Below, one piece after another: positions 2,698 through 59,965 of a stretch of DNA of 64,000 bases. Numbering within the stretch: the first letter of the stretch is position 1; each line of letters begins with the position of its first letter. The position numbers and the translations under genes were made by a program. The DNA comes from Kovacikia minuta CCNUW1 (GTDB lineage: Bacteria; Cyanobacteriota; Cyanobacteriia; Leptolyngbyales; Leptolyngbyaceae). A model generated the notes under the pieces. It was not told the DNA's origin. It worked only from the letters and a program-made list of their open reading frames with translations, and made no database searches. The stretch spans positions 4,216,001-4,280,000 of the forward strand of contig NZ_CP083582.1 in NCBI RefSeq assembly GCF_020091585.1, in the 5' to 3' direction.

Positions 2698-2855
2698 AGG
2701 AAAGTTGAGCGATTGCCACCTGTGCATCGCATGAACAGGTTTCGAGCAAATTTTTCAGCAGCAAAAACCGCTACTCATGCCTGAGCAGGTAAATCTTTGC
2801 TCTGTTACTGAGATGTCTGTGTAGAAGATTTCGTAAAATGGCAAACTGATAAGCT

Positions 2856-4026
2856 GTTAAGCATCTAAATTACATATAATTGATGATAGATTTTTGAAGT
2901 TAACATGACAACCAAGAATTATTTAACTCCCGAAGAGAAACTTAAATTGCAAGGACAATTAAAGTTTCATGAGCATCCTGAAATCCGAGAAAGAATTCTA
3001 ATTCTCCTATTAAGGAATGCCGGAAGAACACAACAGGAAATAGCAGATTTTTTAGGTTGTTCCTTACGAAAAGTTGCTTATTGGTGTACTCATGGAGACC
3101 CTAGCAACTTAGACAGCCTAACGGATGCGAGAATGGCAGGCAACTACCACAAAGCGACAGAAGAGTATATCCATTTGCTGCTAGAAGTAATCGATAAAGA
3201 ACCCCAAGAATACGGTTATGAGTTTGGCAATTGGACTGCTCAGAGACTTGCAACTTACTTAGAGGAGGAGACAGGGATAAAATTAAGTGGGAGTCAGGTT
3301 AGGAGAATTCTCAGTAAAAAAAATATGTTTATATCTGGTCAAAATACAGCCTTGAAGACAAGCAGGATCCAGAGAAAAGAAAGCTATTCAAAGCCAAGCT
3401 AGAGGAGTATTTACGGATTACGAAAGAATCTCCAGAGCGCCTTCAGGTGTGGTTTTGGGATGAGACTGGATTTAGTTTAAGAGTGATTAGAAGACGGAGG
3501 TGGACTAAGAAAGGTAGCCGAAATAAGGTTTCGGGACGACGGAGAAAAGGGCGATTTAGTGTTATGGGAGGAGTACGATTTTCTGACAAGAAAAGAATTG
3601 TTGATTTCATTTCAAAAGGTACTGGAGAGAGTTTCATGAGTGTTCTTGAAGGATTTTATCAGGAACTCAAAAATGAGTGGGCAGAAACAGGGAATGATAT
3701 AGATAACTTTGAACAAAATGGACCGAAAATCATCATTATTCTGGACAATGCCAGTATTCACAAGCGTCAAGATATTCTAGAAATAATTAAGAAGAAGATG
3801 CCTAATCTGATTTTAGAATTCCTACCTGAATACAGCCCTGACTACAATCTGGCAGAATTGGTTTGGCACTCAGCAAAAGAGTTTATCTCTAATCGCCTAT
3901 TTAAATCAATTGAAGAGCTGGAAGCTCTTGTCAATAAATTACTGAATGAGGGTGATTTGATTGTAAATTGGGGGAGAAGTATCAAAAATAAAGGAAATGC
4001 TATTAATGCAATTTAGATGCACACTA
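2856..4026 (+). mobile_element. IS630-family insertion sequence
   Basis: The element is delimited by inverted repeats sharing GCATCTAAATT: left near 2860, right as AATTTAGATGC near 4010-4020. TA dinucleotides lie close to both tips, as expected for IS630/Tc1-mariner elements. The exact outer bases are uncertain because the two tips differ by a few nucleotides. It carries one transposase gene broken into two frames. Confidence 0.7.
2905..4016 (+). pseudogene. IS630-family transposase, frameshifted
   Basis: The N-terminal part (2905-3402) has a helix-turn-helix, QQEIADFLGCSLRKVAYW. The C-terminal part (3447-4016) has the DDE core: WFWDETGFSLR (first Asp), IIIILDNASIHK (second Asp) and LPEYSPDYNLAELVW (family PxYSPxxNxxE box). 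The two halves are in different frames across about 3390-3447. Some IS630 elements use programmed frameshifting, but a plain disabling mutation is equally possible. Confidence 0.8.
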
Positions 4027-4142
4027 GCTTAGGGCGCAGCTAACTCTCAAGGTCTTTCACCTGTTGAGTTGCTACCGATTCCCTATTTATGCCACTAAAA
4101 GCGTAAATCAATTTACGAAAACCGTCAACTATTTTACTCCTA

Positions 4143-4382
4143 ATGACAAGCAAGCCCGAACGATCGCCATTAATGAGACTCAGAGTGCAACGCTTTCTGA
4201 CTCAACAGCAGTTGGCGGATGCGTTAGGGGTGACTGAGACAACAGTAAGGAACTGGGAGGCAGGGCGATCTCAACCCAAGTTAACTCCCGCCCAGTATAA
4301 AAAGTTACTTGAGATTTTACAGATCACACCAGATGAGTTACCCGACGAATTTGGAACACCAGACGGGCAGAAGGAGCCGTAG
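4143..4382 (+). CDS. XRE-family helix-turn-helix regulator
   Basis: A 79-residue protein consisting almost entirely of a Cro/C1-type helix-turn-helix: LTQQQLADALGVTETTVRNW then EAGRSQPKLTP, with a short acidic tail. Single-domain proteins like this bind DNA as dimers and often control a neighbouring accessory gene. The next gene starts 57 bases downstream in the same direction, so the two may form an operon. Confidence 0.75.
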   Translation: MTSKPERSPLMRLRVQRFLTQQQLADALGVTETTVRNWEAGRSQPKLTPAQYKKLLEILQITPDELPDEFGTPDGQKEP

Positions 4383-4439: not shown

Positions 4440-4919
4440 ATGCCAATTACTCCGATTAGTGCAGCATTAACTCAAAGCGATCGAGATGCTGTGATGGCTG
4501 CTGTAGCCACAATCAAGGCAAAGTTATCATTTCTGATTGATTTGACAGCCGACGAGCGTAAAGCTCTGCCAAAGATGGGAGATAAGAGCCGAGCGTTTGT
4601 CAGTAAAGCATTGGAGGTAGCAACACAGAACCCGGACTTCTTGCCAAGATCCTTTGACCTAGATGAGATGCGGAAGGATGTGCAACTGTTTGAAGCCTTG
4701 TTTCCTTTGCTGATGTCACTAACGCAATTACAGGAATTGGTAGACGATACCTGTTTAGCAGTTGGTAGTGAAGCCTATGCCTCAGCCTTGCAGGTTTACA
4801 ATTATGCAAAGGCAAGCGGTCAGGGTTCTGGATTAGATTCTGTCATTGGCGAAATGGGGCAACGATTTGTCAAGAAACCCCGAAAGCCCAAAGCTCAAAG
4901 TGCATCAGCCGGAGCTTGA
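4440..4919 (+). CDS. hypothetical protein after XRE regulator
   Basis: 159 residues with a probable ribosome site (GGGAG) just upstream of ATG. The protein looks helical: repeated A/L/E-rich segments, DAVMAAVATIKAKLSFLIDL near the N-terminus, and a basic C-terminal tail VKKPRKPKAQ. No catalytic motif seen. Position directly after an XRE protein makes a regulated accessory partner possible, but the function is unknown. Confidence 0.5.
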   Translation: MPITPISAALTQSDRDAVMAAVATIKAKLSFLIDLTADERKALPKMGDKSRAFVSKALEVATQNPDFLPRSFDLDEMRKDVQLFEALFPLLMSLTQLQELVDDTCLAVGSEAYASALQVYNYAKASGQGSGLDSVIGEMGQRFVKKPRKPKAQSASAGA

Positions 4920-4991
4920 GATCTACGCCTCACGTAAAAAGGCTGACTATTTGGCTAAGGAGATGCATGATTCAAGCTCGGAACTCGATCG

Positions 4992-5180
4992 TTCTACTGT
5001 TGAGGTCAACTATTTGAGTTCTGAGCTTCGCAATTTGAGGTCAAAGGTCAAATTTTCAAGCTTGGAAGTCAAACTTTTGAGTTCAGAAGTCAAATTTTTC
5101 AGCTTGGAGGTCGAACTTTTGAGTTCAGAGGTGGAAATTTGAAGTTCAGAACTCCAATCTTGAGGTTCAAAGGTCAAAAG
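4992..5180. repeat. degenerate 21-bp tandem repeat coding heptads
   Basis: About eight to nine 21-base units can be laid out from roughly 4992 to 5180, for example TTGAGTTCAGAAGTCAAATT at 5076 and TTGAGTTCAGAGGTGGAAAT at 5118, alternating with a unit built on AGCTTGGAGGTC. Because 21 is three times seven, both strands read as seven-residue repeats: LSSEVKF-like on + (ORF 4846-5142) and LTSELKS-like on - (ORF 5010-5219, starting MIMTIQFASPKWELL). I cannot tell which strand, if any, is translated. The minus ORF has the cleaner non-repeat leader. Confidence 0.75.
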
Positions 5181-5230
5181 CTCCCATTTTGGACTTGCAA
5201 ACTGAATCGTCATAATCAACCCTTATCCCA

Positions 5231-6445
5231 ATGATGGCGACTACATCTCAAACCCAGATCATCTTTCCTCAATCCTCCAGCGAACAAGGGTATGCTTTTG
5301 AGTACCTCCTACTCCGCTACTTCCAACAAGTTCGGGGAAGTACCATAGAACATTTCTCAACGTATAAACATGGTAAGGATAAGAAGTGGTATCAGATTGA
5401 TGGTTTATTAGTGAATGATAAACGCCAACTTCTAGAAGCAAAGTTTTATCAGAAGCCCGTTGGATGTAGAGAAATCGATCCAGATGAACGATTACAAGCG
5501 GCTATAGCCTTTGATTGTGATGAATTACTTCTAGTCTCTCTTAATGGTTTCAAAGATGATGTGCGATCGTGGGCAAGTTCTGTATCTCTTCCTGTACGTT
5601 TTGTCGAATGGAATGAGATTAGAGAAGATGTCTTGGAAAGCTTTGAGGGAACATTCACCGTATTACTAGATCAAGTTCTGTTAGAAGAAACGATAGCAAC
5701 TAGCTTCTCTCATTCAAAAAGTAAACTGTCGTTTAGTAATCAACTCGTTGCAAGCTCCATTGCAGGATTTCCAGAATTCTCTGTTTACTCTGATTCTATT
5801 GAACTCTGGTTGCGTCGTTTGCGTAGATTGGCAGATTGGCAAGAACAGTTAACAAACGGACAATTTCACTACCAGAACACTTTAGAGACTGTTCGATTAC
5901 TTCCTGATAAGGATAGTTATCTCAGCTTAGAAGAAGCTTGGCGAATTGAAGATGCTTTTTCTGGCTATGCAGCACGAACTTATGGGGCTGTAAGAGAAAC
6001 TGCACAAGCATTGAGAAATTTAGGGGGTTCAGCAGTTCTGAAAGCAGTTGTGCAAGAAATTCATCTTTCGTTTCAACAAGACCGCAGACCAGACAAACGA
6101 ACAGGTGATAGTGGCGTAAGGGACTCGCTGAATGCTTTAGCGTTTATGGCACTTGTACAACGTCCTGTGCAACGGGGAGATGGTTATACCTTGACTCCAC
6201 TAGGTTGGGCATATGTCAGAGGTGATGAACCTGATGATCAGATTTTCAGGGAACGACTTACTGAATGGCTACCGTTTAGATACTTCAGATTAGCGATCGA
6301 AGAATACCAAGTTCCACTAGATAAGAAAAGCATTATTGAATGGTTCCAAACTCAATATGCACCGTATGAGCCTTATGCAAGATGTCTATTCAATGCAAAT
6401 AAAGTTGATGGTTTGATAAATTGGTATAAGCAACTTGGATTTTGA
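5231..6445 (+). CDS. PD-(D/E)XK restriction-endonuclease-like protein
   Basis: 404 residues. Residues 20-85 look like a restriction-endonuclease fold: EQGYAFEYLLLRYFQQ helix, then WYQIDGLLV (catalytic Asp) and QLLEAKFYQK (the ExK pair). This resembles Mrr/HSDR-type nuclease modules. The remaining 300 residues are helical with no named domain, and the C-terminal third contains TPLGWAYVRG, which could be a winged-helix end. Start chosen at the first ATG pair. Neighbours are a truncated GmrSD-like gene and an RT-SLATT pair, so a defence role is plausible but inferred. The ORF is intact, unlike its neighbours. Confidence 0.6.
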   Translation: MMATTSQTQIIFPQSSSEQGYAFEYLLLRYFQQVRGSTIEHFSTYKHGKDKKWYQIDGLLVNDKRQLLEAKFYQKPVGCREIDPDERLQAAIAFDCDELLLVSLNGFKDDVRSWASSVSLPVRFVEWNEIREDVLESFEGTFTVLLDQVLLEETIATSFSHSKSKLSFSNQLVASSIAGFPEFSVYSDSIELWLRRLRRLADWQEQLTNGQFHYQNTLETVRLLPDKDSYLSLEEAWRIEDAFSGYAARTYGAVRETAQALRNLGGSAVLKAVVQEIHLSFQQDRRPDKRTGDSGVRDSLNALAFMALVQRPVQRGDGYTLTPLGWAYVRGDEPDDQIFRERLTEWLPFRYFRLAIEEYQVPLDKKSIIEWFQTQYAPYEPYARCLFNANKVDGLINWYKQLGF

Positions 6446-6754: not shown

Positions 6755-6796
6755 ATGGATAAAACTCTAGCAACTCCATATCAATTAATGAACGTC

Positions 6797-6905
6797 TCCG
6801 CTGCAAAGCAGACGGAGTATAACTTCGCTCCACTCGCACGCTTCGCGGCTCGATTCCGCTCAACAGCACCCTTGACGCTGTATGGGACGGACGCAGCAGA
6901 GCTGC
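6797..6905 (+). repeat. palindromic repeat insert in RT reading frame
   Basis: This stretch is richer in GC and in short palindromes than the AT-rich RT gene around it. Examples are TCCGCTGCAAAGCAGACGGA and GCACGCTTCGCGGCTCG. It keeps the frame open and adds roughly 35 residues of Ala/Arg/Thr-rich peptide near the N-terminus. It resembles the small interspersed repeats common in filamentous cyanobacteria. Confidence 0.5.
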
Positions 6906-7567
6906 GGGGAATTGACCCTCAGAGATTAAAGTTTTACTTTACAGTAAAGTCTCTTAAAGAGATTTACAACTCAAGATTTAAACTAAATAAAACACAAGGA
7001 GTCGATCGCCTTAATGGGATTCAGTTTGAAAGACAGTCGAAGCAGCAGATTAAGATAATTCACGAAAAGTGCCTCGCTGGGACTTACAAGTTTTCACCTT
7101 ATCTTGAATTATTACGCTCTAAAGGAAGAGGAAAACTTCCTAGAGTGCTAGCTGTTCCTACAGTACGGGATCGAATTGTTCTGTATGCCTTAAAAGAGAT
7201 CCTGATTGATGTGTTTTCTGAATCTATTCCACGAGATCTCGCTAATACCTATATTTACAAAATTACTGATTTTATGAGGGATAAGAACCCTGCAAGTGTA
7301 GGTGTTTTTCGGGCAGACATAGAAAACTTTTATGATTCAATAGATAGAGAGAAGTTACTAGCAAAGCTAAACCTTAGAATAAAATCAAATAAAATTTTGA
7401 CCTTGATTGAACGAGCAATTACATCTCCAATTGTTCCTCAAGGCTATAAAAAAGTGGATTTGAAAAAATATTCATCAGTCAAAGGCATACCACAAGGGTT
7501 GTCTATCTCAAATATACTTGCAGCTATTTATCTAGCTGAACTTGACGACTTTATGAGAAGTAATGAG

Positions 7568-8746
7568 GGGAGCATGTCACCTTCTGAGTAGAAAAATCAG
7601 AATGGAGGAGTCCTCAATTGCTGGATAATGGGTCATGACACCGGAAGAAGAACAAGCCGTTGCGTATCATGTTCGCGAACTTGCCAAACTGCTGTACAAA
7701 GATGCTGACGCTAGTCAAACGCCCATGACCAACTTGGGAGAAATCGAAGCAGCGGTGCGCGAGCAGGTTCAGAAGCACGTAACACCCGAGATGGGCGTTT
7801 TTTTATCGAAACAGTTACGGGCACAACCGAAGGGTACCCGCGACAGCTAAAAAGCATTTTAGGAACGCTGCCACTGACCAGCGAACAAGCCAATCAATTG
7901 GGAGTGAGCAAAGGGAGTCAATTGAGTCCCTATCTGGAGATGTGTTGTTTGAGAATCAGTGCGAATGTGTCCTATGCTCATGCCACAGAAGATGTGGCCC
8001 TTTTAACCGGAGTGCGGGTGAGTCCGAAAACTCAGCAACGCCTGGTGCAACGTCAGTCGTTTGCCCACCCCACAGTGCAACTGACGGATGCGGTCAATCA
8101 AGTCAGTTTGGACGGTGGACAAATGCGCTTTGTCACGCCCAAGGGCGAACCATCCGAGTGGAAGCAATACAAAGCGGTCCGGTTGGACACCGATGGCATC
8201 GGCATGGCGTGGTTTCAGGACAATGCGGCATTGGTCAATTGGGTGCAAGACCAACCGTTACAATCCCCCTTGTACTGCATCGGGGATGGACATCCGGGCA
8301 TTTGGAATCTGCTGAGCCAACTCGTCGAAGATGACCAGCGCATTGAGATTCTCGATTGGTATCATCTGATGGAAAATCTGCACAAAGTGGGTGGGTCGTT
8401 GCAACGTCATGCTCAAGCCCGTCAACTGCTTTGGCGTGGGCAAGTAGATGCAGCCATTGCGGTATTTGAGGATTGTGCTCTAGAGCAGGCAAAGTGTTTT
8501 CAAAACTATCTCCGGGAGCATCGTCATCGCATTGTCAATTATGAGTATTTTCAAGCGGAAGGATTGTGTGCGATTGGTTCTGGAGATGTGGAATCTTGGG
8601 TGAAACAGATTGACCGTCGGATTCAGTTATCGGGAGCCAGTTGGAATCCAGAGCATGCACCCCAAGTTCTAGCCCACCGCTGCGCTTATTTGAATGGTTC
8701 TCTCGATCCTCAACACCTTTTTCTCTCAAGAAGGTGACACGCTCCC
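7568..8746 (+). mobile_element. ISKra4-type element inserted in RT gene
   Basis: 1179 bp. Terminal inverted repeats read GGGAGCATGTCACCTTCT on the left and GGGAGCGTGTCACCTTCT when the right end is reverse-complemented. The element is flanked by a 9-bp direct repeat AGTAATGAG at 7559-7567 and 8747-8755. Exact ends and duplication indicate a recent, un-rearranged insertion. Confidence 0.88.
7635..8737 (+). CDS. ISKra4-type transposase, two reading frames
   Basis: The first frame (7635-7850) encodes the small N-terminal region beginning MTPEEEQAVAYHVRELAK. The second (7898-8737) encodes the DDE part: VSLDGGQMRFVTPKGE (first Asp), YCIGDGHPGIWNL (second Asp), ILDWYHLMENLHKVG, then the C-terminal IGSGDVESWVKQIDRR. 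The other ISKra4-type copies in this window have the same two-frame layout, so the split may be natural (programmed frameshift) rather than a mutation. Confidence 0.75.
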
Positions 8747-19250: not shown

Positions 19251-19380
19251 TTTGCCGATCCTAGTTGTCGTTGCGATCTTAGTTGTCACTTTGATCCGAC
19301 TTGTCATTTCGATCTGGCTTGTCATTTCGATCTGGCTTGTCATTTCGTTCTTGACTGTCACTTCGATCTCAAGTGTCGTT
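19251..19380 (+). repeat. tandem 18-bp repeats near IS21 right end
   Basis: Seven imperfect 18-base units follow the istB stop, for example GATCTGGCTTGTCATTTC, which occurs twice in a row, with variants GATCCGACTTGTCATTTC and GATCTTAGTTGTCACTTT. IS21 elements carry multiple internal transposase-binding repeats near their ends, which is the likely role here. Confidence 0.75.
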
Positions 19381-59305: not shown

Positions 59306-59965
59306 CTACAAACTGACAATGCCCCGCTTAACCGCGACGATCACAGCCTGGGTGCGATCGCCCACATCTAACTTATTCAAAATTCGATTCACATGAGATT
59401 TAACCGTGCCTTCACCGATACTCAAAGCAGTCGCAATCTCAGCGTTACTCATTCCTTGTGCCAATGAGCGGAGTACTTCCAGTTCTCGTTCACTCAGTTC
59501 TGGATTACTGAGGCGCTGAGCCAACTTTGCGCCCACATCAGGTGGAATATATTGCTGACCCCGATGAACGGTGCGAATCGCATTCAGAAGCTCATCCGGT
59601 TCAGTTTCTTTCAACAGATACCCTTTGGCTCCTGCCTGCAATCCCCGATAAATGTCTTCGTCACTATCATACGTAGTTAGTACAATAATTCGAGCAGATT
59701 TAGCGATCGCACAAATTGCAGAAATGGCGGCAACTCCTTCCACTTCCGGCATTCGCAGATCCATCAGCGTGACATCCGGTTGGTGTTCCTCAAATAGCGC
59801 GATCGCTTGTTCCCCATTTTCCGCTTGGGCAATCACGTTCATATCTGGATCACGGTTAATAATCGTCGCTAATCCTTGCCGAAAAATAGCATGATCGTCT
59901 GCAATCAGAACCCGAATTGGGGGAGTGGGGAGTGAGGAGTGGGGAGTGGGGTTTGGAGTAGTCAT
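59306..59965 (-). CDS. NarL/FixJ-family response regulator
   Basis: 219 residues from MTTPNPTPHSSLPTPP. Receiver domain with VLIADDHAIFRQG (acidic pocket), DVTLMDLRMPEVEGV (phospho-Asp) and LLKETEPDELLNAI (Lys). C-terminal LuxR helix-turn-helix LSERELEVLRSLAQGMSNAE and GEGTVKSHVNRILNKL. The start is 4 bases after the histidine kinase stop, so the two are a translationally linked pair. A short repetitive GGGAGTG tract codes for the Pro/Ser-rich leader. Confidence 0.93.
   Translation of the reverse strand: MTTPNPTPHSSLPTPPIRVLIADDHAIFRQGLATIINRDPDMNVIAQAENGEQAIALFEEHQPDVTLMDLRMPEVEGVAAISAICAIAKSARIIVLTTYDSDEDIYRGLQAGAKGYLLKETEPDELLNAIRTVHRGQQYIPPDVGAKLAQRLSNPELSERELEVLRSLAQGMSNAEIATALSIGEGTVKSHVNRILNKLDVGDRTQAVIVAVKRGIVSL

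Follow-up and report, generated by a model that had tools for sequence, protein, structure and literature searches.

Arrays of short sites bound by small proteins are familiar from centromeres and operators, with plasmid parC sites and the omega heptads as examples. In REP/RAYT systems, short palindrome-like repeats are both linked to a gene and dispersed within one genome. The LTRR of Anabaena has a 37-bp unit, and we know of no gene family that is linked to it. Cyanobacteria are known for heptanucleotide repeats, and G-quadruplex heptamers have also been described (PMC4692102, PMC4679880). The LTRR of Anabaena is named in PMC2408588, and REP elements with RAYT transposases are the subject of PMC3733652. 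A search of the open-access literature, which may miss other reports, returned no recognized description of gene-linked 21-bp arrays.

Here, we analyzed a tandem array and the neighboring gene for a 159-aa protein in the window, by which we mean the whole stretch of 64,000 nucleotides that was examined. The association between this gene and such arrays is well supported, as is the conclusion that the window copy of the array is noncoding.

The array in the window

The repeat that the earlier note had placed at 4992-5180 is confirmed. It is a degenerate tandem array with a core that was located by TRF (Table 1), and its 21-bp period was borne out by TRF and by autocorrelation, its 7-bp phase by autocorrelation and by the GANNTC sites. 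Over 5001-5178, the autocorrelation peaked at each multiple of 7 (0.45 at 7, 0.43 at 14, 0.65 at 21, 0.47 at both 28 and 35, and 0.68 at 42). Shuffles of the same interval gave about 0.26, which puts the observed peaks at z 4.5 to 11.1. GANNTC occurs 11 times in 4901-5225, with starts between 4918 and 5149 and spacings of 63, 21, 14, 21, 28, 14, 7, 21, 14, and 28, all of them multiples of 7; 1000 shuffles of this interval held a mean of 1.2 sites and a maximum of 6. Since these sites share one 7-bp phase, the phase runs past the ends of the tract as it was reported.

The second feature described in the earlier note, similar heptads on both strands, is also real and beyond chance. The + frame of the array reads ...LSSEVKFFSLEVELLSSEVEI up to a stop at 5142, so this frame does not cover the final 38 bases of the tract as reported; the - frame (5010-5219) reads ...LTSELKSLTSKLENLT.... 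The GANNTC core is palindromic and the 21-bp unit spans seven codons, which is why both strands read as similar heptads wherever no in-frame stop intervenes. The heptads are a by-product of the 7/21-bp period combined with a self-complementary core, and what the earlier note described is explained without coding.

Table 1. Positions of the array, its reading frames, and the adjacent genes in the window
Feature	Position	Strand	Basis or detail
XRE-type HTH gene, just upstream of the 159-aa gene	4143..4382	+	Pfam HTH_3, E 8.9e-12
Gene for uncharacterized helical 159-aa protein with basic low-confidence tail; usual partner of 21-bp arrays	4440..4919	+	
TTG-started ORF with LSSEVKF heptads, 98 aa; judged not coding	4846..5142	+	ORF list; neutral substitutions; stop in G010
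Noncoding array of one-phase GANNTCN heptamers; higher-order unit of 21 bp (and 42 bp)	4918..5225	none	
TTG-started ORF with LTSELKS heptads, 69 aa; judged not coding	5010..5219	-	ORF list; neutral substitutions
TRF core of the array	5034..5178	none	Period 21 (6.9 copies, 66% matches); period 42 (3.5 copies, 75%)

The tract had been proposed as an expanding coding repeat or a source of new small proteins, and the coding part of this proposal fails for the window. The phased stretch at 4876-5225 has stops in all six frames (3 to 11 each). For comparison, we used the nearest relative found for the locus, G010, which belongs to another genus of the same family. Between the window and G010, the + frame of the array carries 3 silent and 11 changing substitutions (11/14, with 79% changing expected without constraint) and the - frame carries 4 silent and 13 changing (13/17, again with 79% expected). 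The neighboring 159-aa gene, in the same comparison, has 47 silent and 7 changing substitutions (7/54, with 77% changing expected). The G010 copy has a stop about a quarter into the + ORF and another early in the - ORF. Across the 54 of 80 loci that gave delimited arrays for the open-frame, self-complementarity, and folding tests, open frames were not in excess (41 open, where column-permuted units predict 47.3). At p<0.05, 1 of 49 arrays showed codon-position bias, and the window array showed no amino acid constraint of the kind that marks PARCELs or other coding repeats. One part of the proposal holds: alignments of relatives contain 21-bp gaps, meaning that units are gained or lost.

Two other repeats were observed in the window. 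An 18-bp array at 19265-19369 shares its consensus and a copy number of 5.8 with a second site in the genome (L205, 18443-18547). A short GGGGAGT heptamer repeat, typical of STRRs, lies at 59920-59951, and many 7-bp arrays are present in the genome.

The HTH gene was considered as a conserved partner of the 159-aa gene and rejected, as its homologue adjoins the 159-aa gene only in the window locus and G010 among 80 loci. With ORFs reading the gene or array set aside, no neighbor was shared beyond 8 of the 80 loci. The commonest neighbors, at 8 loci each, were an HNH-like ORF and a cluster of mixed content; an ATPase-like ORF, identified by reading its sequence, lay downstream in 5 loci, and neighbor clusters of 10 and 6 loci proved to be ORFs that read the array itself. 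The HNH-endonuclease ORF is mostly upstream of the gene (L140, L118, L143, L171, L173, L175, L176, and L177), and the L140 copy spans 967-1377 (PF01844, E 2.4e-12). In the window, the locus lies between a GmrSD_N-like gene (637-2277) and a gene at 5231-6445 that matches Mrr_cat marginally; together these two possibly mark a defense region. An IS630-like element with a DDE_3 ORF (2852-4029) is inserted relative to G010, with flanks that share 2 bp and resemble a TA target. A reverse transcriptase ORF (RVT_1) is found at 6755-7591.

The gene family and its arrays

The 159-aa protein matched no family above the cutoff in Pfam or NCBIfam, and nothing strong was found in PHROGs (best E 0.0062) or by sequence profile against the PDB (best E 0.27). 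AlphaFold predicted a helical protein with a long helix at residues 74-126 and a basic tail of low confidence; the best of five models had a mean pLDDT of 86.7, and the other four ranged from 58.6 to 67.0. Comparison of the model by Foldseek (best E 2.4) and VIA (best Z 4.3 over 51 residues, rmsd 2.4) gave no convincing structural relative, DNA-binding proteins included. Homologues of the gene, often multicopy, were found in 20 of 58 genomes in a search of relatives and in 14 of 292 genomes in a search of the phylum, where both counts include the window's own genome and some genomes are common to both searches. Similar unannotated proteins presumably occur in Bacteroidota as well. A phage or viral origin found no support, with neither the array pattern nor the protein present in viral contigs and phage matches at only E=5. 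Plasmids yielded one homologue, from Thiodictyon (50% identity, no array). A plasmid search with two diverged family members returned this record alone, and a plasmid search at the DNA level gave no matches.

A tandem array lies at most 450 bp away from 69 of the 79 cyanobacterial homologues examined, a count that comes from related copies and thus not from independent loci. The lag was 21, 22, 42, 43, or 63 in 68 of the 69 (21, 42, or 63 in 63 arrays, 43 in four, and 22 in one), and 7 in the remaining array. The other 10 homologues, together with the Thiodictyon homologue, had no array at the z threshold. Our first sample came from the search of relatives, which gave 74 places; 14 short or weak fragments were left out, and the 60 analyzed consist of 58 with E values of at most 6.7e-30 and two weak ones. 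Arrays with z of at least 6 were present within 450 bp of the match at 52 of these 60 loci, 39 downstream and 13 upstream, compared to 0 of 59 and 1 of 59 (lag 12) in control flanks 900-1350 bp away. The second sample comprised 19 new loci from other families found in the phylum search, in which some other places already belonged to the first set. An array was found beside the homologue in 17 of the 19; the two misses were a locus with masked stretches (L169) and a locus near a contig end (L177). Over both samples, 56 of the 69 arrays come after the gene and 13 lie upstream. The side is clustered on the tree, with 5 changes versus 12.0 in shuffles and 0 of 500 shuffles as low (64 rows, rule-made labels).

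The same association was seen when we started from the array. A degenerate pattern search of GTDB genomes returned 32 stretches, all cyanobacterial (one named to phylum only). The 159-aa gene was present in 6 of them, in each case immediately followed by an array of the lag-21 type (z 6.0 to 14.4).

While the period is shared, the unit consensus varies widely between clades (e.g., L112, L134, L141, and L148). Similarity between units had a mean z of 6.6 for pairs with protein identity of at least 85% (14 pairs), 3.9 for 70-85% (73 pairs), 1.8 for 55-70% (259 pairs), and 0.39 below 55% (980 pairs, of which 41 still had z above 3). Below about 55% protein identity, units are mostly unrelated in sequence, and the 21-bp length persists. 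Most of the cyanobacterial relatives examined have 21-base units beside the gene, often spelled with other letters, a pattern suggesting that spacing counts for more than sequence.

Between close relatives, the array can be compared directly with the gene. The alignment of the window with G010 has no gaps through the gene and the array. In the array (4961-5180), 16 of 220 sites differ (7.3%, gapless), compared to 43 of 160 third positions of the 159-aa gene (26.9%), and 8 of 41 sites differ in the spacer between gene and array. A second measure gave 8.4% for the array over 285 gapless bp versus 34% at 4-fold sites. Array divergence was likewise set against 4-fold sites in L168/L170 (10.9% versus 26%) and in L163/L165 (9.5% versus 16%, where the gaps measured 21, 22, and 42). 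The two values were about equal in L152/L157, L168/L179, and L170/L179; many array alignments are gappy or alignable only in part, and local alignment is biased toward low divergence. In the cleanest comparison, the array evolves more slowly than the third codon positions of the gene. Gene conversion could be an alternative cause of the low array divergence. We also considered whether a mobile unit ends where the array does and rejected this, given synteny with G010 upstream and homology that resumes downstream after about 270 bp (window 5484-5607, 76.6%).

Possible explanations for the arrays

Our preferred reading, in which we place middling confidence, is that the window tract is a cis-acting array of double-stranded DNA sites, putatively bound by the neighboring 159-aa protein or a partner of it. 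We infer that the neighboring protein is probably the binder. Two turns of B-DNA measure 21 bp (2 x 10.5 bp), and the array would be a row of putative binding sites spaced two helical turns apart. In a self-complementary 21-bp tandem, successive dyads, 10.5 bp apart, would all face the same side of the helix. Along this side, the cognate 159-aa protein (or its partner) could bind cooperatively as dimers, and the resulting nucleoprotein assembly would regulate or organize the locus. The unit sequence would coevolve with each paralogue, and arrays without the gene would be spread or left-over sites. Self-complementary units exceeded chance, with 32 of the 54 delimited arrays at p<0.05, including 30 of 45 downstream ones. 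Several points speak against a protein-bound array: the protein has no DNA-binding fold match; upstream arrays are mostly not self-complementary (2 of 9 are); 10 of the 79 homologues and that of Thiodictyon lack an array at the threshold; none of nine 21-type arrays sampled in the window's own genome lies with the gene, and arrays of any lag are common in that genome; the low divergence of the array is not uniform among pairs; and some pairs below 55% protein identity still have similar units.

More tentatively, gene and array may together form a new gene-repeat system, in which a helical protein has its own array and the 21-bp length, often with dyad symmetry, is inherited while the sequence is replaceable. 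If this were true, unit length would be dictated by the protein, whether through a 21-bp-spaced assembly on DNA or through driving array formation. The protein would also seed gene-less arrays genome-wide, and some of these would end up within conserved proteins as heptad inserts that keep the frame. Since the gene family predicts array positions, with the length kept and the letters free, the abundance of 7-bp and 21-bp arrays becomes a testable protein-DNA question. The 21-bp period, being seven codons, shows a route to frame-preserving heptad inserts within genes.

A neutral heptanucleotide repeat of the STRR type, which arises throughout these genomes by replication slippage in steps of 7 bp, decays to 21-bp order, and is tolerated beside the 159-aa gene, seems an unlikely explanation. 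It fits the 7-bp phase of the window array and a genome with abundant (AAAACTC)n and (AAAATTC)n, counts for which the reversed-pattern control carries no information as the heptamer is the same backwards. It also fits the 17 of 69 gene-linked arrays with lag-7 autocorrelation of at least 0.4. In the own-genome background, 147 of 1760 windows of 450 bp held arrays of any lag, 109 of them with lag 7. However, a 21-type lag was found in 11 of these 1760 windows (0.6%), as opposed to 68 of the 79 homologues. In addition, 43 of 69 gene-linked arrays have lag-7 autocorrelation below 0.35 with the 21-bp period still present, and the higher conservation of the array relative to third positions of the gene is a further point against neutrality.

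Rather improbable, in our view, is a system like REP/RAYT in which the 159-aa protein makes or spreads 21-bp arrays that are dispersed and sometimes lie in frame in genes. Arrays of the 21 type do occur away from the gene. In the 0.8 Mb sampled from the window's own genome, none of nine such arrays had the 159-aa gene in its 20-kb stretch. Among eight gene-less 21-bp arrays, three clearly match the gene-linked unit of their own genome (L198, L210, and L191; p<0.005) and one matches weakly (L202; p 0.010), over 56 comparisons. Arrays of the 21 type and at least 80 bp long numbered 21 in 1.6 Mb from seven genomes with the gene versus 2 in 0.8 Mb from four genomes without it, a comparison that is confounded by phylogeny and genome size. 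A stricter count, limited to arrays that have five or more 21-bp units (or the equivalent in 42/63-bp units) and are not built on 7-mers, gave 16 versus 0, under a rule set after the list had been seen and with counts made by eye. Against such a system, no nuclease or transposase family, Y1 (HUH) included, was found by Pfam in 22 members of the gene family, and the 60 alignment rows of the protein family have no invariant or nearly invariant His. No conserved array ends were seen, and the unit sequence varies across the family.

Some of the dispersed copies lie in frame inside long ORFs, as in L002, L004, and L005 of the window's own genome. By Pfam, the array is located between two Glyco_transf_9 stretches in L002 (1409-1814), inside an nSTAND1/WD40 protein with nSTAND1 matched in two stretches in L004, and in the HATPase_c region of a PAS/HisKA/HATPase_c kinase with HATPase_c in two stretches in L005 (1422-1820). 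Seven Nostoc loci (L075, L077, L079, L082, L083, L094, and, at a contig edge, L092) have in-frame repeats of the (TSELGTS)n type. By sequence, these Nostoc ORFs appear to encode the same ATPase as L004, the one member for which Pfam was run. The inserts differ in length and lie between a Walker-A-like stretch and a VLIFDQFEEFF (Walker-B-like) stretch, both motifs being assigned by reading. Such arrays can thus become coding, and the notion of coding heptad arrays survives for these gene-less copies while it does not for the window tract.

A structured RNA, with the array giving rise to a long hairpin transcript or a protein-binding repeat RNA as in type III toxin-antitoxin loci, is very unlikely. 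The folding energy is -65.3 kcal/mol for the + strand of the window array (z -5.0 versus dinucleotide shuffles), and the position of most arrays after the gene would suit a transcript. As a selected structure, the hairpin was rejected, for heptamer-shuffled window arrays fold equally well (z -0.4), meaning that the window fold follows from the heptamers. Several other arrays beat heptamer shuffles in palindrome score or folding, a result to which we give no weight because such shuffles also destroy the 21-bp order. Over the 45 downstream arrays, the mean z was -1.42 for the sense strand and -1.49 for the antisense strand, and sense was the more stable in 23 of 45. This absence of a strand preference points to double-stranded DNA over a transcript, and the 13 upstream arrays argue the same way against an RNA.

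Finally, a translated tract that yields heptad peptides from either strand or from both is scarcely credible: the two TTG-started open frames and the in-frame relatives elsewhere speak for it, but amino acid change is neutral in both frames, both are interrupted by stops in G010, and neither open frames nor codon-position bias is in excess among the arrays.

Comparison with known systems

The LTRRs resemble the window array as tandem repeats in cyanobacterial intergenic regions and differ in unit length. PARCELs share tandem repeats with dyad symmetry that are able to encode amphipathic repeats; however, PARCELs are coding repeats of 25 residues, whereas the unit in the window measures 21 bp and belongs to a noncoding array.

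The STRRs are likewise cyanobacterial, dispersed, and in 7-bp tandem phase, and the window array does have a 7-bp unit. Unlike in STRRs, its heptamers are degenerate, follow a 21-bp order, and lie next to a gene, and a 7-bp unit is not general to the gene-linked arrays, as 43 of 69 have little 7-bp subperiod. With REP/RAYT systems, the arrays have in common short palindrome-like repeats that are gene-linked and may likewise be dispersed through the genome that carries the gene. The difference is that here the repeats are tandem 21-bp arrays of changing sequence and the protein is helical, with no nuclease family and none of the Y1 (HUH) type.

Centromere and operator arrays offer a further comparison. 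Plasmid centromeres differ from the loci described here, which have no motor NTPase in common and encode a 159-aa protein outside the ribbon-helix-helix and HTH families; the window array is also chromosomal and multicopy. What these systems and our loci share is the arrangement itself, namely, a gene for a small protein beside tandem short sites that have helical spacing and are diverse between systems.
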